Assembly: GCA_902797035.1 (NCBI GenBank)
Contig: CADBRH010000037.1
Location: forward strand, 1-45,818
Length of the DNA stretch: 45,818 bases
Reading direction: 5' to 3'
DNA from: an uncultured Bacteroidia bacterium
GTDB taxonomy: Bacteria; Bacteroidota; Bacteroidia; Bacteroidales; UBA932
A program made the position numbers and the translations under genes. Below the pieces are notes generated by a model that was not told where the DNA came from, did no database searches, and saw nothing but the letters and a program-made list of their open reading frames with translations. Positions 31,482 to 40,719 of this stretch are shown here, piece after piece; positions within the stretch are counted from its first letter, which is position 1, and every line of letters starts with the position of its first letter.

Positions 31482-32396
31482 ATGGCAGAAATCGACCCTA
31501 TCCTGGAGCGCCGTCAGCGCGAAGAGCAGGAGCAGAAGAACAAGAGTTTGAAGAACGTCATGTGGGCGCTTGTCGCCGTCGCGGCTCTCATGGCCGGAGG
31601 CCTCGCCTACGTGTGGACCACCAAGTCTTCCCTTGTCAAGGATCTTAACGCCGAGAAGGAAGACCTCACCCAGCAGATGATAGCCCTCAAGGGAGACTAC
31701 GACAGCCTTTCTTCTGAATATGAGTCCGTCAACAGCCAGCTTGACTCCTCCAGGGAGGAGGTCAACCAGCTGATCGAGAGGATCCAGAAGACCGAGGCCA
31801 CCAACCGCGCCAAGATGCGCCAGTACGAGAAGGAGCTTGGCACCCTGAGGAGCATCATGAGAAACTACATCGTCCAGATCGATTCCCTCAACACCCTCAA
31901 TCACAAGCTGACCGCCGACGCGGCCGCCGCGCGTAAGGAGGCTGCCACGAGCAGGGCGGAGAACGCCGAGCTGAAGGGTCAGGTCGAGAGCCTGACCGGC
32001 CAGGTGGCCGCCGGCTCCGTGATTAAGTCCAGGGGACTCAGCGTGGCGGGTTACAACGCGTCCGACAAGGTCACGGACCGCAGCAGCAGGGTTGTGAGGC
32101 TGTTGGCGTCATTGAGCCTTGTGGAGAACGAGCTGGCTCCCAAGGGACCCGTCAGGGTTTACATCCGTGTCAAGGATCCGGAGGGGATTCTCCTGACCAA
32201 CAGCAACCAGACATCTTTCAACTACAATGGCCAGACGCTTGTGGCTTCCGCCTCGCGTGAGGTGGATTATCAGGGCAAGGAGGTTGATTTGAGCATCTAT
32301 CTCAACGACATCCCGTCTTACCAGCCCGGCATCTACACGATCGAGGCTTACACCGCGCAGGCTTTCCTCGGCAAGACCGAGCTCCTGCTGCGCTAG
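31482..32396 (+). CDS. Membrane-anchored coiled-coil protein
   Basis: Protein of 304 residues. A short cytoplasmic N-terminus (MAEIDPILERRQREEQEQKN) leads to one transmembrane helix (about 25-48). A long coiled coil follows at about 50-175 (heptads in LNAEKEDLTQQMIALKGDY, SLNTLNHKLTADAAAARK). The C-terminal domain is beta-rich (about 190-304; VRVYIRVKDPEGILL, IYTIEAYTAQAFLG). It probably spans the periplasm, but no function is recognised. It is the first gene of a tight pair with hemW: only 3 bp separate its stop from the hemW GTG. Confidence 0.75.
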   Translation: MAEIDPILERRQREEQEQKNKSLKNVMWALVAVAALMAGGLAYVWTTKSSLVKDLNAEKEDLTQQMIALKGDYDSLSSEYESVNSQLDSSREEVNQLIERIQKTEATNRAKMRQYEKELGTLRSIMRNYIVQIDSLNTLNHKLTADAAAARKEAATSRAENAELKGQVESLTGQVAAGSVIKSRGLSVAGYNASDKVTDRSSRVVRLLASLSLVENELAPKGPVRVYIRVKDPEGILLTNSNQTSFNYNGQTLVASASREVDYQGKEVDLSIYLNDIPSYQPGIYTIEAYTAQAFLGKTELLLR

Positions 32397-32399
32397 GCG

Positions 32400-33809
32400 G
32401 TGATCTACCTTCACATACCCTTTTGCGAGAGTTTCTGCGTCTACTGCGGATTCTTCTCCGTTACACCTGCTGCCGAACCTCATGATCCGGCCCGCGTGGC
32501 GACAAAGTCTCCCGCCGCCTCCCAACCGCTTAGCGGCCCTGTCCGGGCAAATGACCGGAGGTCAGGATCTTTGTCGCCACGGGAGGAGTGTTTCGAGGCG
32601 TTCGCCGACGCGGTGACCGCTGAGATCGAGGCCCGGCGTGACGAGATCGCCGCTGCGGCGGCCGTGAACACCCTTTACATCGGCGGAGGCACCCCCTCGG
32701 TGCTTCCGCTTGATGTTTTATCCCGTATCGTCCATTCGTTGAACGCGTCACGTGAAGGGGTTGTGCCGCCAAACCCTCCGCGCTCCGCGCTCCGTCCCGT
32801 CTCGCCTTCGGCGATCCACCCGTTCATGTGGCCACGGGTGGCCACAGGTTTGGCCGGCACACCCCTTCACGGCGACACCGCCCCTTCCGGCGACACCCTA
32901 TGGGATGAATTCACGGTGGAGGTGAATCCTGAGGACATAGTGACTAAAGGAGGGGAATACGCGTTGGGACTGATGGAGTTGGGGGGTAACCGGATCAGCA
33001 TGGGGATCCAGTCGTTCGACGACGGGATCTTGAGATGGATGAACCGCCGTCACGACGCGGCGGCCGCGGAGGAGGCTTTCAGTATCCTTCGCCGGGCCGG
33101 TTTTGACAACATCAGTGTGGATCTCATTTTCGGCCTCTCCCAACTCGACGAGAAGACCTGGAACGACACGATCGACAAGACCCTCGCCCTTGGTCCGGAG
33201 CATATCTCGGCCTACCAGCTCTCGGTCGAGGAGGGTAGCGCCTTGGAGAAAATGATCGCTAAAGGGAAATACTCCGAGGCTCCGGAGGAGTTGTGCCGAC
33301 GGCAATATGACATCCTCTGCGCGAGGCTCGGGGCGGCGGGCTACCGCCATTACGAGATCTCGAATTTTGCCCTTCCCGGTCGGGAGGCCATTCACAACAG
33401 CGCCTATTGGCGGAGGGTTCCCTATGTCGGCTTGGGGCCCGGAGCGCATTCATTGTCAACTGATTCCGTCAGATCCTGGAACAGTCAAGAGATTCCCAGG
33501 CGCATGAGGGACGGACGACTGGCGACATATTCAAGGGAAGAGGAAGTCTTGACGCCTGAGGACATCAGGATCGAGAGGATAATGCTGCCTCTGAGGACCG
33601 ATCTCGGTATGCCAGAGGAAGAGCTACGCTCCCTCGCCGGTGACGAGACGGTCGAGCGCCTCCTTTCGGAAGGCGCCCTTATCCATTGTCATCCCGCTTG
33701 TCATCCTGAACGAAGTGAAGGATCTTTCCTTGATCAAAGTGAAGGATCTCTCCGTATTCCCGAGGATCATTTCTTCACCTCTGACGAGATAATCCGAGAG
33801 CTTATTTGA
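32400..33809 (+). CDS. hemW: HemW-like radical SAM heme chaperone with large in-frame insertions
   Basis: Radical SAM protein (family length about 375-380 residues; here 469). It begins with a GTG immediately after the preceding TAG in its own frame: MIYLHIPFCESFCVYC has the [4Fe-4S] CxxxCxxC at Cys9-Cys13-Cys16. Downstream motifs are TLYIGGGTPSVLP, FTVEVNPEDI, GGNRISMGIQSFDD, and GAHSLS. The extra length comes from two palindromic insertions (about residues 33-61 and 118-157) and a repeat-derived stretch near the C-terminus (about 429-449). The core motifs are intact, so the protein is probably still functional despite the insertions (inference). Converges with the beta-lactamase-type gene, overlapping 8 bp. 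Confidence 0.92.
   Translation: MIYLHIPFCESFCVYCGFFSVTPAAEPHDPARVATKSPAASQPLSGPVRANDRRSGSLSPREECFEAFADAVTAEIEARRDEIAAAAAVNTLYIGGGTPSVLPLDVLSRIVHSLNASREGVVPPNPPRSALRPVSPSAIHPFMWPRVATGLAGTPLHGDTAPSGDTLWDEFTVEVNPEDIVTKGGEYALGLMELGGNRISMGIQSFDDGILRWMNRRHDAAAAEEAFSILRRAGFDNISVDLIFGLSQLDEKTWNDTIDKTLALGPEHISAYQLSVEEGSALEKMIAKGKYSEAPEELCRRQYDILCARLGAAGYRHYEISNFALPGREAIHNSAYWRRVPYVGLGPGAHSLSTDSVRSWNSQEIPRRMRDGRLATYSREEEVLTPEDIRIERIMLPLRTDLGMPEEELRSLAGDETVERLLSEGALIHCHPACHPERSEGSFLDQSEGSLRIPEDHFFTSDEIIRELI
32495..32581 (+). repeat. Intragenic palindromic element H-1 (hemW)
   Basis: An 87-bp (29-codon) element bounded by perfect 13-bp inverted arms CGTGGCGACAAAG (32495-32507) and CTTTGTCGCCACG (32569-32581). 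Its core GCCGCCTCCCAACCGCTT, then AGCGGCCCTGTCCGGG, is nearly the same as the core of the element in the beta-lactamase-type gene at 34302-34390, and holds an internal CCGC-TTA-GCGG hairpin. The peptide is PAASQPLSGPVRAND. Confidence 0.85.
32751..32871 (+). repeat. Intragenic palindromic element H-2 (hemW)
   Basis: 121-bp element with near-complementary arms of about 25 bp (32751-32775 and 32847-32871; one bulged base on each side), enclosing a GC-rich core with TCGCCTTCGGCGA. It encodes an Arg/Pro-rich stretch (PPNPPRSALRPVSPSAIHP). The core is not obviously the same as that of H-1. Confidence 0.78.
33686..33750 (+). repeat. Dispersed repeat (TCATCCTGAACGAAGTGAAG type) at the 3' end of hemW
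   Basis: Contains the units TGTCATCC and TCATCCTGAACGAAG followed by GTGAAGGATCT, the latter repeated once as AAAGTGAAGGATCT. It is translated as HPACHPERSEGS and DQSEGS in the HemW C-terminal region. The same family occurs in the 42790-42834 intergenic gap in inverse orientation. Confidence 0.8.
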
Positions 33810-35145
33810 CGATCGCTCCGGCGACGATGTTCGAGACCTGGGCGCGGAGCCGGGCCATGCTGCCTTTGTCCTCAGGGTGTACCCTGTTGGCGAGGATGAT
33901 GACCGCGGTCTTGGTCTTCATGTCTATCACGATCGAGGGGCCGGTGTAGCCGGTGTGCCAGATGGATGTCTCCGGATCGAATATGTCACCTCTCGTGCCG
34001 GGGTTCCAGCCGTCCTTGTCCCATCCGAGCGCCCTTCCGACTTTCAGGTCGTTCTGGACCGGGGCCTTGCACATAAGCTCTATTGTCAGGGGACTGAGGA
34101 CACCTTGGCCTCCATTCATGATCGCCGAGCAGATCACGCTCAGGTCTTCGGCGTTCGAGAACACTCCGGCGTTGCCAGAGTTGCCGCTGTTGATTCTTCT
34201 CGCGATGGGGTCGTGCACGGCCGCCACGAGCGGGAGGCCGTCCGCCTGCACCTCCGTCGGTGCGCAAAGCCTCTTTAATCCCTCCCTGAAATCAGGCGCC
34301 TCCCCGGCGGGGAAGGCCTCTGCCGCCTCCCGACCGCTTCGCGGCCCTATCCGGGTAAATGCTCGTCGGCCAGAGCCTTCCCCGCCGGGGTTGCCCTCTG
34401 CCGCTTCCCGACCGCTTCGCGGCCCTGTACTGGTCAGCGGGAAATAGCAGGTATGTTCAAGTCCGAGGGGAGCGAACACGTTCCGCTGGGCGTAGTCGCA
34501 AAGCCTCTCGCCGGTTACCCTCTCCAAAATCCTTTGTAAAGTGATGAAGTTCAGGCAGCTGTAAAGGCATTCGGTCCCGGGACGGAAATTCCTCTTGACC
34601 CGGGTGGCGATGTAAGTCTCGAGCTCGTCGGGAGTGTTCTCCCCGAACTCGGCCACGTAGCTGTCCACGCCGATGTAGGCGTCAAGGCCGGAGGCGTGGG
34701 TCATCAGGTCACGGACCGTGATGTCCACCTTCTCCCCGGTCTCGGGGTCCTCCCAGGGTTTGAATCCGGGGATATACCTGTCCACATTGTCGGTGAGGCG
34801 AACATAGCCGTTCTCGATCAATTGAAGAAAGGACAGGGTGGTTCCCACGCACTTGCTGACAGAAGCCAGGTCGAACATGGTCTCCGTGGTCATAGGCTCC
34901 ACTTCCGGGACGAGGGACTTGTTCCCGTAGGCCTTGAGATAAACAATCTTGTCGCCCCTGACGACCGAGACAACAGCTCCGGGAATCGTCTTGTCGGCGA
35001 TGGATTCCTCGATGACCCGGTCGACCTGGGCAAGCTTGTCCCCGTCCATCCCGAGGTCCTCGGGCCTCGCGGTTTCCAGAGGTTTCTGGGCCGAGGCGAC
35101 AAGGGCCGCCAGGGAGGCGGCCCATATTAACAGGACTCTTTTCAT
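33802..35145 (-). CDS. Serine beta-lactamase-type hydrolase (class C/EstB-like) with repeat insertions
   Basis: Exported protein of 447 residues, signal peptide MKRVLLIWAASLAALVASAQ. The active-site SxxK is Ser95-Val-Ser-Lys98 in FDLASVSKCVGTT; the second motif reads YSCLNF, where many relatives have YSN. Later segments ADGLPLVAAVHDPIARR and GNAGVFSNAEDLSV match Bacteroidetes serine hydrolases. It may act on a beta-lactam, D-amino acid peptide or ester; the sequence does not decide. An insertion of about 50 residues (about 236-288), containing two GPRSGREAAE repeats, is encoded by palindromic elements. It starts one base inside the EEP gene stop. Confidence 0.85.
   Translation of the reverse strand: MKRVLLIWAASLAALVASAQKPLETARPEDLGMDGDKLAQVDRVIEESIADKTIPGAVVSVVRGDKIVYLKAYGNKSLVPEVEPMTTETMFDLASVSKCVGTTLSFLQLIENGYVRLTDNVDRYIPGFKPWEDPETGEKVDITVRDLMTHASGLDAYIGVDSYVAEFGENTPDELETYIATRVKRNFRPGTECLYSCLNFITLQRILERVTGERLCDYAQRNVFAPLGLEHTCYFPLTSTGPRSGREAAEGNPGGEGSGRRAFTRIGPRSGREAAEAFPAGEAPDFREGLKRLCAPTEVQADGLPLVAAVHDPIARRINSGNSGNAGVFSNAEDLSVICSAIMNGGQGVLSPLTIELMCKAPVQNDLKVGRALGWDKDGWNPGTRGDIFDPETSIWHTGYTGPSIVIDMKTKTAVIILANRVHPEDKGSMARLRAQVSNIVAGAIVK
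34302..34390 (-). repeat. Intragenic palindromic element B-1 (beta-lactamase-type gene)
   Basis: 89-bp element with arms CCCCGGCGGGGAAGGCCTCT plus G (34302-34322) and CAGAGCCTTCCCCGCCGGGG (34371-34390), pairing with one bulged base. The core at about 34322-34360 matches that of H-1 in hemW (CCGC-TTC-GCGG hairpin here, CCGC-TTA-GCGG there). It is read on the opposite strand from hemW and encodes GPRSGREAAE. Confidence 0.85.
34391..34440 (-). repeat. Second, partial copy B-2 of the same element
   Basis: The core recurs 78 bp (26 codons) from its position in B-1: CTCTGCCGC at 34396-34404 compared with 34318-34326. Shared features are CCCGACCGCTTCGCGGCCCT. The far arm that should pair is absent, so this copy is truncated. 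The 26-residue period is visible in the protein as GPRSGREAAE repeated. Confidence 0.78.
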
Positions 35146-35990
35146 CAGAAGATCAATGTCGCCGTGATGGGATAGTGATCGGAGATGAACTTGCGTTCCA
35201 TGTAGGGCTTTGTGATGGTCTCATAGACAGGGCATGAGCTGAAGCCCTTGAACCAGATGTAGTCGATAATGCTGTCCGGGCCAGCCTTGCCCCAGCCGTT
35301 GAATGTCTGGTGATGGTCGGTCTTGACGGCCACCTCGCGGGTGTTTTTCATCATCTTCTTCATGTCGTCGAACTCGGGACGGTCGATCCTCATGTTGAAG
35401 TCGCCGGTCACAACCATGGGCAGCCCCTTAGGGTTGATGCTGTCGATCCTGTCCACGATGAGTTTCATCCCGTTCTTGCGGGCCTGCCAGCCAACATGGT
35501 CGAGATGAGTGTTGACGTAATAATACTTCTTGCCGCTGGCCTTGTCCTTGAGCAGGGCCCAGGTGGCGGTCCGGAAGCAGGCGGCGTCCCAGCCCATCGA
35601 GGGGACATCGGGAGTCTCCGACAGCCAGAAGGTCCCCCATTTCAGCAACTTGGTGGTCTTCTTGTTGTAGAAAATGGACATGAACTCGCCTTTGCTCTTG
35701 CCGTCATCGCGGCCGACGCCGACGCTCTTATAGTCAGGGCAATAATCCTCAAGATACTTGACCTGGTAATCATAGGCCTCCTGGAGACCGAAGATGTCAG
35801 GCTTCTGGTCGTTTATCATCATCGCCGAGGCCGGATAGCGGAATTCCCATGAGTTGGTCCCGTCCTTCGCGGGCCCGTTCCTGATGTTGTAGGATATTAC
35901 TTTGATGTCGCCGTTCTTGTCTTTCTTGGCGGACACGCTGACAGGCAGAGCCACTAAGGTCGCCAGCAGGATAAGAAATACTCTTTTCAT
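35145..35990 (-). CDS. Endonuclease/exonuclease/phosphatase (EEP) family protein
   Basis: Exported protein of 281 residues with signal peptide MKRVFLILLATLVALPVSVSA. EEP motifs are all present: VISYNIRNG (31-39), the catalytic Glu in FGLQEAYDY (Glu71), VNTHLDHVGWQAR, GDFNMR at 196-201, and ISDHYPITATL (SDH at 270-272). Secreted Bacteroidetes EEPs are phosphodiesterases of unknown substrate. The start is the signal-peptide Met; an upstream in-frame start at 36053 lies in the promoter region. Its stop and the next start overlap by one base (TGATG) with the serine hydrolase gene, so the two are an operon. Confidence 0.9.
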   Translation of the reverse strand: MKRVFLILLATLVALPVSVSAKKDKNGDIKVISYNIRNGPAKDGTNSWEFRYPASAMMINDQKPDIFGLQEAYDYQVKYLEDYCPDYKSVGVGRDDGKSKGEFMSIFYNKKTTKLLKWGTFWLSETPDVPSMGWDAACFRTATWALLKDKASGKKYYYVNTHLDHVGWQARKNGMKLIVDRIDSINPKGLPMVVTGDFNMRIDRPEFDDMKKMMKNTREVAVKTDHHQTFNGWGKAGPDSIIDYIWFKGFSSCPVYETITKPYMERKFISDHYPITATLIF

Positions 35991-37079: not shown

Positions 37080-38628
37080 GAAGATACGGAAATATCTGAT
37101 AATCCCGCTGTTGGCGATTTTGGCGTCCTGCTCCACGGGGCTGGACACCCAAATGAGCGCCGTGCTGGACAAGGTGGAGGAGGACCTCGGCTATGTCAAC
37201 ACCGTCGGGGTGGAGGATATGGCCAGGATGACAAGCTGGTTCGAGCGACACGGGGACGATTCCCAGAAAGCTAGGGCATGGTTCTGCCTCGGAAGATCGC
37301 AATTCAACGACAGGTCTTACTCCTCCGCGATAGTCTCTTACACCAGGGCTCTCGAATATGCCGTCAAGGCCGGTGACTCTTACCGCGAGGGCTTGATCTG
37401 CAGGGACATGGCGAGGATAAGCGGGGCCTCAGGCAACGCCCCAGACGAAATCCTGTACCTGGCGAGGGCCTCGGAGGCTTTCAAGGCCGCCGGGCTTCAG
37501 GGTGAGTTCCAGCGGACTCTTCTGGAGATAGGCCAGACCCAGGCCGCGTCAGGCAAGCACGAGGCCGCGGAGGAGATATTCAAGAGTGTTCTTTACGACT
37601 CCCACGAGATGGGGGACACACTTCTGGAGGCCCGCTGCCTGGAGTCTTACGCTTCCCTGGCCGTCAGCAAGGATATTCCCGACCCCGCCCTCGCTATCGA
37701 CATGCTCGGCAGGGCGTCCGGTGAACTGGGTTATCCCCTGAGCTCGTCGGACAAGGGGATTTTGGCTTACTCCTATTCGTTGGCGGGGAAACAGAAGGAG
37801 GCCTGGAGCTGGCTCGCTGAGGCAAAGGCCTCGGCCGAGACGGATGAGGACATCGCCGACGCCGATTTCCGGGAATATCAGATCGCTTCCCGCTCCGGCT
37901 ACGCCGCCAGGGCCCTGAAGGCTTTGGAGAGGGTCACCGAATATGGCGACAAGGCGCAGTCAGCCGCCCTGGAGGAGGCCGTGTCCGCCAGCCAGAGGGA
38001 ATATCTTCAGGGACAGTCTGACATTCAGGCGGAGAAGCTGCGCGCCGCGAGGTTGAGGATGTGGCTTCTGGCGCTCGCCGCCTTGCTGGCGGTCGGTGCC
38101 GTGGTTGTGGCTTATGTGTTCTACCGTTCTGAGCAAAGGAGGCTTCTCGAGGAGGAGATAGCTGAGAGAGACAGGTATATGACCATCGCCGAGGACCTAC
38201 GTGACAGGCTGGCCCAGAAGGAGGACAAGAAGTCGCAGGAGCCGGGGTTCGAGGCGCTCGAGAGGCTGTGCGAGCAGTATTACATCTACGAGGGGACAGA
38301 GAACCTGCAGCCCAGGATCCTCAAGGAGGTCAAATCGATAGTCGAGGGTCTGAGGAGCGACAAGAAGGTCCGAAAGAACCTGGAGGACACGCTGGACGCC
38401 CGTCTTGACGGTGTGATGACCAAGCTCCGGGCGGAGTTCCCTTCGTGGAGAGAGGAGGATTTCCAGCTCTATTCATTCACGGCGGCCGGTTTCTCCAGCA
38501 CCACCATTTCTGCTCTGATGGAAAAAGAGAAGAGCGTTATCTACAACCGTGTCTGGCGCCTGAAAGGGAGGATCGCTAATTCCGGATCCCCCCTCAAAGA
38601 GTTCTTCCTGTCCTGCCTGGACAGTTAA
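37072..38628 (+). CDS. TPR / transmembrane / helix-turn-helix regulator (Bacteroidetes type)
   Basis: Protein of 518 residues beginning with a lipoprotein-like signal (KYLIIPLLAILASC, Cys near residue 20). TPR-type helical repeats extend over about residues 30-300 (ARAWFCLGRSQFNDRSYSSAI, GKHEAAEEIFKSVLYDSH). One transmembrane helix is near 330-352 (MWLLALAALLAVGAVVVAYVF), followed by a cytoplasmic coiled coil. A C-terminal DNA-binding helix-turn-helix region (FSSTTISALMEKEKSVIYNR) follows. This architecture suggests direct coupling of an envelope signal to transcription. The start is inferred from the signal and gives an 8-bp overlap with the ThiL-like gene. Confidence 0.85.
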   Translation: MSKKIRKYLIIPLLAILASCSTGLDTQMSAVLDKVEEDLGYVNTVGVEDMARMTSWFERHGDDSQKARAWFCLGRSQFNDRSYSSAIVSYTRALEYAVKAGDSYREGLICRDMARISGASGNAPDEILYLARASEAFKAAGLQGEFQRTLLEIGQTQAASGKHEAAEEIFKSVLYDSHEMGDTLLEARCLESYASLAVSKDIPDPALAIDMLGRASGELGYPLSSSDKGILAYSYSLAGKQKEAWSWLAEAKASAETDEDIADADFREYQIASRSGYAARALKALERVTEYGDKAQSAALEEAVSASQREYLQGQSDIQAEKLRAARLRMWLLALAALLAVGAVVVAYVFYRSEQRRLLEEEIAERDRYMTIAEDLRDRLAQKEDKKSQEPGFEALERLCEQYYIYEGTENLQPRILKEVKSIVEGLRSDKKVRKNLEDTLDARLDGVMTKLRAEFPSWREEDFQLYSFTAAGFSSTTISALMEKEKSVIYNRVWRLKGRIANSGSPLKEFFLSCLDS

Positions 38629-38640
38629 TCCACGATCAGT

Positions 38641-40719
38641 ATGAGAAAGACATTAGCGATACTCGCCTTTCTCCTCCTGTCCTACGCGTCCTACGGTCAG
38701 GAAGGGAAAAAGGTGAAGGTCGCCTGCATCGGCGACAGCATAACCTATGGCTATGGGGCGGGAGACCGGGATAACCAGTCCTACCCCGCTCAGTTGCAGG
38801 CGCTTCTGGGAGACGGGTACGAAGTCGGCAATTTCGGGAAGAACGGGGCCACACTCCTGCGCCGCGGCCATAGGCCTTACCTTGAGCAGGAGGAATACCG
38901 CGCCGCAAAGGACTTCGCCGGGGACATCTGCGTCATCCATCTCGGGGTTAACGACACAGACCCGCGAGACTGGCCGAACTACCGCGACGATTTCGTTGGG
39001 GACTACCTTGCCCTTATCGACTCCTGCAAGGCGTCCAACCCTGACGCGAGGGTGATCATAGCCCTGCTGAGCCCGCTGGCGGACCGCCATCACCGTTTCA
39101 TGTCCGGCACGAAACAGTGGCACGCGGATATCCAGGAGGCGATAAAGGTCGTCGCCGAGACCTCAGGCTGCGAGCTGATAGACTTCCACTCGCCGCTTTA
39201 TCCCTATCCCTGGCATATCCCCGACGCGATCCATCCGGACGTGTGGGGTTACGGGGTGTTGGCGAAGACAGTGTATTCCCGGATAACGGGGGATTATGGA
39301 GGGCTTTCGGTCTCCCCGCTTTACTCTGACAATATGGTCCTGCAGCGCCGCCGGCCGGTAGAGATAAGCGGCACGGCGGACGTTGGGGAGAAGGTCTCTG
39401 TCAGGCTAGGTAAAAAGACCCTCAAAACTGTGACCGGGCTGGACGGGAAGTGGAGAGTGGAGTTCCCTCCGATGGAAGCCGCCACCGGGCTGGAACTCTC
39501 GATCGCCACAAAAGAGAAGACTTTTGAATATTCTGGCGTGGCCGTCGGCGAGGTCTGGCTCTGCTCCGGCCAGTCGAACATGCGTTACGCCCTCGGCTCG
39601 GCGAAGGGAGGCAGGGAGGCCGCTGAAGCCTCCTCGGATCCCGACTTGCGCTTTTTCGACCAATGGCCTTATTGGGAGACTTACGATGTCGCTTGGCCTG
39701 AGTCGGCGGTTGACTCGGTCAAGAACCTGATTTACTTGCGGCCCGCCACCTGGAAGACCGCGTCACCCAAGACATCATCCGGGATGTCCGCCGTTGGATA
39801 CTGGTTCGCCAAGGAACTAAGGGATAGCCTTAAGGTCCCGGTCGGGATCATCTGCGACGCGGTGGGCGGGGCCACAGCCGAGTCCTGGATTGACAGGAAC
39901 ACCCTTGAGACCAGATTTCCGGTCATCCTCCGGGACTGGATAAACAATGATTTCATTCAGGAATGGGCCCGGGAGCGGGCGGCGAGGAATGTCTCCTACA
40001 AGAAAGGGGACAAGTTCGCACGCCACCCCTACGAGCCTTGCTATCTTTTTGAATCAGCGATACTTCCGCTTGGACATCCGACGCTTGCCGGTGTCATTTG
40101 GTACCAGGGCGAGTCCAACGCCCACAACTTCGAGGCCCACGAGCTGCTGTTCCCCCTGCTTGTGGACAGTTGGAGGGAGTGGTTCGGCGATCCCGCCCTC
40201 CCGTTCTTTTATGTTCAGCTTTCAAGTCTGAACCGGCCTTCTTGGCCTTGGTTCAGGGACAGCCAGAGAAGGCTTTTGGAGAGCAGGCCAAATCTCGGGA
40301 TGGCCGTCTCCAGCGATCTCGGGGACCCGTCTGACGTGCATTACAAGGACAAGAGACCGGTCGGGGAAAGACTCGCCAGGCTGGCTCTCAACGGGGTGTA
40401 CGGTTCCTCCGTCACGCCATCCGGTCCTCTGTTCAAGTCGGCGACCGTCTCAGGAAAGGAAGTGATCGTGGAGTTTGAATATTCCGACGGCCTCAAGGCG
40501 GCCTACGGGTCGGAAGTTATTGGCTTCGAGATCGCCGGGAAGGATATGCTGTTCCAAAAAGCGACCTGCCGCCTTGAGGGCGACAGGGCCGCGCTTTCAG
40601 CGCCCGGGGTGGCGAGTCCCGTCTATGTCCGTTACGCTTGGGAACCGTACACCCGCGCCAACTTGGTCAACGGCGCCGGCCTTCCCGCCTCGACATTCAG
40701 GGGAGAAGTCACTTATTAG
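38641..40719 (+). CDS. Two-domain esterase: SGNH hydrolase fused to sialate O-acetylesterase
   Basis: Exported protein of 692 residues, signal peptide MRKTLAILAFLLLSYASYGQ. An N-terminal SGNH domain covers about residues 24-220: block I IGDSITYGYG with Ser33, the IHLGVNDTD block, and block V DAIHPDVWGYG. A short beta domain (about 220-300) leads to a second SASA-type domain with CSGQSNM (Ser312) and GVIWYQGESNAH. Two separate esterase active sites would suit removal of O-acetyl groups from glycans such as sialic acid or plant polysaccharides; the substrate is inferred. It starts 12 bp after the regulator gene stop. Confidence 0.88.
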   Translation: MRKTLAILAFLLLSYASYGQEGKKVKVACIGDSITYGYGAGDRDNQSYPAQLQALLGDGYEVGNFGKNGATLLRRGHRPYLEQEEYRAAKDFAGDICVIHLGVNDTDPRDWPNYRDDFVGDYLALIDSCKASNPDARVIIALLSPLADRHHRFMSGTKQWHADIQEAIKVVAETSGCELIDFHSPLYPYPWHIPDAIHPDVWGYGVLAKTVYSRITGDYGGLSVSPLYSDNMVLQRRRPVEISGTADVGEKVSVRLGKKTLKTVTGLDGKWRVEFPPMEAATGLELSIATKEKTFEYSGVAVGEVWLCSGQSNMRYALGSAKGGREAAEASSDPDLRFFDQWPYWETYDVAWPESAVDSVKNLIYLRPATWKTASPKTSSGMSAVGYWFAKELRDSLKVPVGIICDAVGGATAESWIDRNTLETRFPVILRDWINNDFIQEWARERAARNVSYKKGDKFARHPYEPCYLFESAILPLGHPTLAGVIWYQGESNAHNFEAHELLFPLLVDSWREWFGDPALPFFYVQLSSLNRPSWPWFRDSQRRLLESRPNLGMAVSSDLGDPSDVHYKDKRPVGERLARLALNGVYGSSVTPSGPLFKSATVSGKEVIVEFEYSDGLKAAYGSEVIGFEIAGKDMLFQKATCRLEGDRAALSAPGVASPVYVRYAWEPYTRANLVNGAGLPASTFRGEVTY

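Follow-up and report, generated by a model that had tools for sequence, protein, structure and literature searches.

A family of short palindromes with a conserved core and locus-specific, matched arms in genes of uncultured Bacteroidales

The stretch of DNA analysed here (the window; 45,818 nt, positions 1 to 45,818 of contig CADBRH010000037.1, GenBank assembly GCA_902797035.1) belongs to an uncultured Bacteroidia bacterium of the Bacteroidales lineage UBA932. Two convergent genes, the radical SAM protein gene hemW and a serine hydrolase gene, each hold a complete copy of a short palindromic element, and a partial copy follows the one in the hydrolase gene (Table 1). The original prediction, made from the letters of this DNA, had described a nearly identical core between terminal arms that are complementary within each element, and this description held. 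The two elements and the partial copy are present at the positions listed, the arms pair without mismatch (13/13 in hemW, 16/16 in the hydrolase gene), and the shared core occurs three times in the window versus none in 100 shuffles. As had also been stated, the core is translated from opposite strands, as PAASQPLSGPVRAND in hemW (core strand) and as GPRSGREAAE, twice, in the hydrolase (other strand).

Table 1. Features of the hemW and hydrolase loci, in window coordinates (ORF, open reading frame).
Feature	Position	Strand	Basis or remark
hemW, radical SAM protein gene	32400..33809	+	ORF; Pfam Radical_SAM; homologues; name from sequence resemblance
Complete element in hemW	32495..32581	+	core strand is the hemW coding strand
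Left arm of hemW element, CGTGGCGACAAAG	32495..32507	+	13/13 complementary to 32569-32581
Conserved core of hemW element, 37 nt	32521..32557	+	family core register and pattern match
Right arm of hemW element, CTTTGTCGCCACG	32569..32581	+	inverted-repeat partner of 32495-32507
Element B, of another sequence family, in hemW	32751..32871	+	arms 32751-32775 and 32847-32871
Serine hydrolase gene (Pfam Beta-lactamase)	33802..35145	-	ORF; Pfam; orthologues; holds complete element and partial copy
Complete element in hydrolase gene	34302..34390	+	core strand opposite to the coding strand
Left arm of hydrolase element, CCCCGGCGGGGAAGGC	34302..34317	+	16/16 complementary to 34375-34390
Conserved core of hydrolase element, 37 nt	34329..34365	+	family core register and pattern match
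Right arm of hydrolase element, GCCTTCCCCGCCGGGG	34375..34390	+	inverted-repeat partner of 34302-34317
Partial tandem copy	34391..34440	+	left half of core and hairpin, without complete right half; matched stretch 34379-34434

The closest named relatives of hemW are metagenome-assembled genomes of Bacteroidia/Bacteroidales. The core was missing in 29 of 30 aligned HemW proteins, three further records carrying a related element, and the site was empty in 10 of 16 hydrolase orthologues. Therefore, the core is not a conserved domain of HemW or of the hydrolase, a possibility that the prediction had itself raised. The Pfam Radical_SAM and beta-lactamase matches extend across the inserts. In an AlphaFold model of HemW based on an 11-sequence alignment, the predicted local distance difference test score (pLDDT) was below 50 at residues 22-56, 121-165 and 435-447; these stretches overlap both elements of the gene and a third short repeat, and the thin alignment there may contribute to the low values. 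At the hemW position, three other loci (L045, L129 and L134; L stands for locus and G for genome throughout) carry an element whose core has an identical right half and whose arms are wholly different, L045 and L129 (G090) probably representing one genome.

A search with CCCTATCCGGGTAAATGCTCG, allowing up to 3 mismatches, gave matches in 17 of 20 genomes of the clade, G000 among them, at 0-47 per genome, and the reversed-pattern control gave 0 in 20/20. A slightly looser pattern found 35 core matches in the genome of the window itself (control, 0); all such counts include tandem half-copies and a few weak matches. The wider family has a core close to CTCSC.RCGCTTCGCGCCCTATCCGGGTAAATGNTCG; set in register, most copies show one near CTCSC.RCGCTTCGCG-CCCTATCCGGGTAAATG-NTCG, with arms that are their own. 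Per-column entropy in 50 gap-free copies rose from 0.22 bits for the core to 1.4 for the arms and 1.9 for the sequence outside. The statement that the arms have nothing in common was correct in that they differ between loci but overstated, as ancestry is visible in the inner arms. Twelve loci, spread over 7-9 different sites in five genomes, have inner arms in common, with identity reaching chance at ~18-22 nt from the core, and hydrolase elements of two relatives (L128, L129) form a group with the hemW element in inner-arm sequence. The family is probably a small, non-autonomous mobile palindrome of roughly 80-100 bp.

Two candidates were discarded. The longer core given originally (TCCCRACCGCTTMGCGG / TCCCRACCGCTTMGCGGCCC) did not serve as a family signature, with 3 convincing copies here and weak matches in 6/101 other genomes; its match C43 lies inside a gene read as PhoH-like and its match C99 has 3 mismatches. 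Carriage by phages or plasmids was rejected on 0 exact matches to a 23-nt pattern in viral contigs, an annotated phage collection not being part of that search, and on a single 26-nt match at E 0.8 in a plasmid search. Tandem copies, mostly of the right half (core end plus right arm), were seen in the genome of the window at L187, L171, L186, L188, L196 and L198, two or three per site with 54-68 nt spacing.

The arms, ~20-25 bp long, differ between loci and pair within each locus. Over 127 contexts, the median pairing score was 16 for an arm with its own partner versus 2 for arms swapped between loci. In a non-redundant set of 85 elements, for which a score of at least 10 was needed, 685 of the 850 cells formed by the ten inner-arm pairs were Watson-Crick; relative to the commonest pair, 298 cells were changed on both sides and 18 on one side. 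In the 50 gap-free copies, 88.6% of cells were paired, with 173 changed on both sides and 7 on one. These 50 were hand-picked from the 85 without a fixed rule, leaving out the whole shifted-core subfamily, the two window elements included, and for this reason the count was repeated on all 85. Cells paired, double-changed cells and covariation score of the 50 copies each lay above 500/500 shuffles, and sliding the partners by 1-3 columns left only 17-44 double-changed cells. The proposal of a core that moves while its arms change yet stay matched is supported: the family is interspersed, its arms are locus-specific and their pairing is kept.

The same was seen at sites shared by related genomes. 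Over the 95 of 103 genome pairs that were kept (8 were dropped for low own pairing), the pairing of an element with itself stayed at 0.83-0.86 regardless of arm identity, whereas cross-pairing dropped from 0.85 to 0.57, as low as between unrelated loci; the genome pairs overlap in sites and genomes and so are not independent. At shared sites, arms can diverge to unrelated sequence and yet remain matched.

Whole elements were also found inverted at shared sites: in 4 of 16 for G090/G422, in 4 of 8 for G408/G422 and in 4 of 10 for G090/G408, with sites overlapping between these counts. Flanks were 93-98% identical at 10 of the 12 same-orientation sites of G090/G422. The cleanest inversion is L226/L353, with arms 93% identical, followed by L221/L352, where the arms are 100% identical and one side has a short additional stretch; in L368/L376, one of the four of G090/G422, the arms are only 70% identical, and this case may be a replacement. 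The hydrolase site in G422 and G186 holds inverted, half-lost forms.

A long ORF here is a stop-free run and not necessarily a real gene. Runs of at least 150 codons, with at least 20 codons on either side, held 71 of the 85 elements and the same share of random windows from the same loci (354/425). Net insertion at six occupied/empty sites (L355, L374, L359, L231, L181 and L259; L264, L266, L256 and L260 were left out) was 90, 96, 93, 93, 81 and 81 nt, all multiples of three, the first of these sites lying directly after a stop codon. Insertion length was a multiple of three in 11 of 12 comparisons, the exception being 85 nt, and one further comparison was weakly anchored. The elements are read through in frame. 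As they lie in ORFs as often as random windows do, and are flipped there, the family offers a natural test bed for the acceptance of new loops by proteins and for the rate of palindrome rewriting in bacteria. At L264 and L267 and their orthologues L311, L319 and L334, sister genomes have a different short repeat, GGTCCCTGAGCGGAGCCGAAGGGCC or a variant of it, in the same protein linkers; those linkers are hot spots for several repeat families.

The origin of the arms was followed at empty sites, where an insertion that makes an inverted copy of flanking sequence had been predicted to leave one arm pre-existing. A first set comprised 14 elements of G213 and 23 coreless stretches in G042, G186 and G301, both flanks scoring at least 40/60 in 10 of the 23 comparisons. 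A clear arm was present in two: the left arm at L263/G042, which is read as a half-lost copy, the whole element being present in three other genomes, and the right half with the core end at L265/G042. Weaker arm scores at L260/G042, L256/G186, L268/G042 and L168 were at about chance level for 138 tests, and neither arm was found at L181, L259, L264/G042 or L266. In a second set (13 elements, 35 coreless comparisons), neither arm was found at L355 (five genomes), L359, L231 or L374 (two each), with best scores of at most 13/20; the element is present in several relatives at L374, where its absence may thus reflect a loss. Half-lost forms stand at L243/G213 and in one piece of G422. As most clean empty sites have neither arm, the arms usually arrive with the element, and the family is very probably a mobile one whose arms mostly come with it. 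No clear direct repeat of the kind left by target site duplication was seen at the empty sites, as judged by eye and without statistics.

The best reading of these data, in which we place about even confidence, is a mobile palindrome with a conserved core at its apex and free paired arms that are kept matched, and flipped, by self-templated DNA copying. For the narrower claim that DNA self-templating keeps the arms matched, the balance is slightly in favour. The best account, as yet unproven, is that the element is copied by template switching or by folding back, either where it stands or while it moves. The palindrome would fold back during replication or transposition, so that one arm templates the other; the same template switching would invert the element and at times leave half-elements, and the core is probably the part recognised by a mobilising factor. 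Two papers report that template switching between inverted-repeat arms makes the arms alike and turns spacers round (PMC8604942, PMC8794818). Matched block changes, flips and half-losses are therefore predicted, and all three were seen in the family. As an example of a block change, the left inner arm of the hydrolase element of G301 is, on our reading, almost identical to the reverse complement of its right arm, and G408 and G090 retain a mismatched form there.

Several observations weigh against this reading. Two covariation measures fell within the shuffles, the number of pairs with a double change (45/500 as high) and that of further pair types (426/500). Among 16 hand-listed pairs of close orthologues, with ~9% flank divergence, changes were mostly one-sided, with 33 one-sided and 5 double changes (2 still paired) in 400 pair positions. 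Therefore, in-place correction is slow or occasional, and large arm changes may come by another route. Copies with the same inner arms also stay matched over ~5 locus-specific bases past the common stretch: in 8 of 9 copies, 5 or 6 of 6 such positions pair (random, 2%; swapped, 17%). This could mean that the matching is made at insertion. Two coreless sites hold left-arm-like sequence with its partner missing, L177/G090 (18/20, with another repeat at the place of the core) and L229/G186 (15/20); these may be either half-lost copies or cases in which the flank-copy prediction is borne out. The stretch that is turned round greatly exceeds in length the 2-5 nt spacers of the yeast paper (PMC8604942). 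The genomes are metagenome assemblies, which may err at palindromes, and no mobilising enzyme was found in a search confined to the Y1 transposase family.

The main rival is recognition of the hairpin by a putative enzyme. The paired arms would be selected, since the element must fold as single-stranded DNA or as a hairpin for a transposase or invertase; arms would drift in active source copies and fixed copies would inherit the match. The conserved apical core and the inner arms common to several copies are consistent with this, as is the accumulation of one-sided changes in fixed orthologous copies, expected if selection acts only on source copies, and a wobble preference is not expected for DNA folding. 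Matched changes and inversions at sites shared by related genomes speak against it. The Y1 transposases, moreover, do not track copy number: G017, G044 and G003 have 3, 7 and 2 matches, respectively, each with 0 core matches. This explanation is possible, if on the unlikely side. As a candidate mover, the Y1 (RAYT) transposase gained no support, PF01797 being present in 19 of 20 genomes irrespective of copy number, in a search of that one transposase family.

A fold-back mobile element, which we regard as rather unlikely, would move as a single strand with the core, one arm and adjoining sequence, the second arm being self-primed from the first on arrival. If this were true, each jump might bring new, automatically matched arms, and the unit would be defined by its loop and not by its ends.

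The site itself might supply the arms, either because the element inserts into the loop of a pre-existing small palindrome or because flanking sequence is copied in inverted orientation. The locus-specific matched bases beyond the shared arm and the partnerless left-arm-like sequences at L177/G090 and L229/G186 point in this direction. So does the intergenic L362, which lies after a stop codon: a terminator-like hairpin stands in some relatives (G186, G213 and G422) where others have the element, with unrelated arms (orthologues L407, L408, L425 and L387). Against it, the eight sites listed above have neither arm, L177 has no left-arm-like sequence by eye in G186, G301 and G213, and the same arms are found at different sites. 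The inverted flank copy of the original prediction thus keeps those two left-arm-like sites and fails at most clean empty sites, and arms supplied by the site are unlikely.

Replacement of the whole element, through recombination with other strains or through separate insertions into permissive linkers, was judged unlikely as well, if anything a shade more so. It fits L163/L360, where the left flanks are near-identical and core type, arms and surrounding sequence differ, and also the different repeat families in the same linker of sister genomes. In contrast, L226/L353 and L221/L352 retain 93-100% of arms and flanks save small indels, and only the orientation differs.

The other cause proposed had been selection for an RNA stem, formed either by the host mRNA or by a transcript of the element. 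RNA stems tolerate G.U pairs. Over whole arms, counted after leaving out 17 of the 127 contexts with a pairing score below 8, there were 57 G.T versus 79 A.C mismatches on the core strand, and in the ten inner pairs of the 85 copies 25 versus 46; summed by the strand of the host ORF, wobble pairs numbered 37 and the opposite mismatch 51. As G.T was no commoner than A.C, an RNA stem is unlikely. Double changes are strong in the arms, and folding energy was under that of shuffles in 6 of 6 strands tested (z -2.7 to -5.7). The excess of A.C over G.T on the core strand (46 vs 25) would be wobble on the opposite strand, and is the sole point that could favour weak selection there. With one-side-changed cells scarce (18 vs 298), no wobble preference on the core or the mRNA strand, both orientations to the host ORF in use (39 vs 32, n=71), inversions frequent, and no Rfam family at gathering score in the 4 kb scanned (31500-35500), this cause is improbable. 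Textbook-looking double compensatory changes, when they come without a wobble preference, are by themselves no proof of a functional RNA.

Among named systems, the nearest kind is the Rickettsia palindromic element (RPE), and the best reading is that the family acts like a template-switching palindrome that is also mobile. RPEs are palindromic repeats of 105-146 bp that lie in frame within protein genes, with terminal inverted repeats listed at 12 bp in a table of the source (PMC2229807). The present elements are likewise palindromic and in frame in ORFs (71/85 in long ORFs), and their net insertion of 81-96 nt is slightly shorter. RPEs have terminal inverted repeats and a Rickettsia host. The present family has free ends and a conserved loop, is found inverted at shared sites and lives in gut Bacteroidales. 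As conserved terminal inverted repeats are lacking (arms 1.4 vs core 0.22 bits; little pairing between loci), the family was not filed as RPE. Template-switch inverted repeats of yeast coding genes and RNA hairpins (PMC8604942, PMC8794818) share the matched multi-base arm changes and the flips; the yeast cases are single-locus mutations with 2-5 nt spacers, whereas here an interspersed family has a 37-nt core and whole elements are turned.

Repetitive extragenic palindromic (REP) elements are 20-40 bp, extragenic by name and tagged at one end by GTAG or CGTC (PMC3733652). REPs and REPINs resemble the family as short interspersed palindromes and differ in that the foot is variable here (outer columns 1.9 bits, near random) and 71/85 copies lie in long ORFs, a comparison that rests on column entropy and position and not on a search for the GTAG/CGTC tags. 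The coding palindromes known from Nematomorpha mitochondria are alike in having inverted repeats within coding sequence, but both of their arms encode conserved protein (PMC6649704), whereas here the whole element is an inserted loop. No description of the family was found in titles or abstract openings among the literature matches listed, most subscription journals lying outside their scope.

Textbook mobile elements keep their ends, whereas this family keeps its loop and changes its ends. Miniature inverted-repeat transposable elements (MITEs) have fixed terminal inverted repeats related to those of the transposase, and the ends here are variable. In invertons of Bacteroidales, each locus has its own matched pair of inverted repeats around a segment that occurs in both orientations. 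The present element is likewise seen both ways round, here between genomes (G090/G422, 4/16 shared sites), and differs in being dispersed and in enclosing a conserved 37-nt core.

Other repeats of the window were noted. Two inverted repeats with 65-71 nt loops (38563-38669 and 40488-40582) had none of the core on reading. Element B of hemW, which the original prediction had not listed, has several inner hairpins; the outermost bases of its arms vary from genome to genome and are still largely matched. Compared with G301, G176, G017 and G000, it is turned round in G213 and G042. A pattern search found it in 2 of 37 genomes, a set without the nearest relatives, and reading of hemW added further orthologues. 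Close to the HemW C-terminus lies a short repeat resembling GTCATCCTGAACGAAGTGAAGGATCT (33701-33755), read as CHPERSEGS, and a related reading, VILSEAKNL, occupies HemW loops in relatives.

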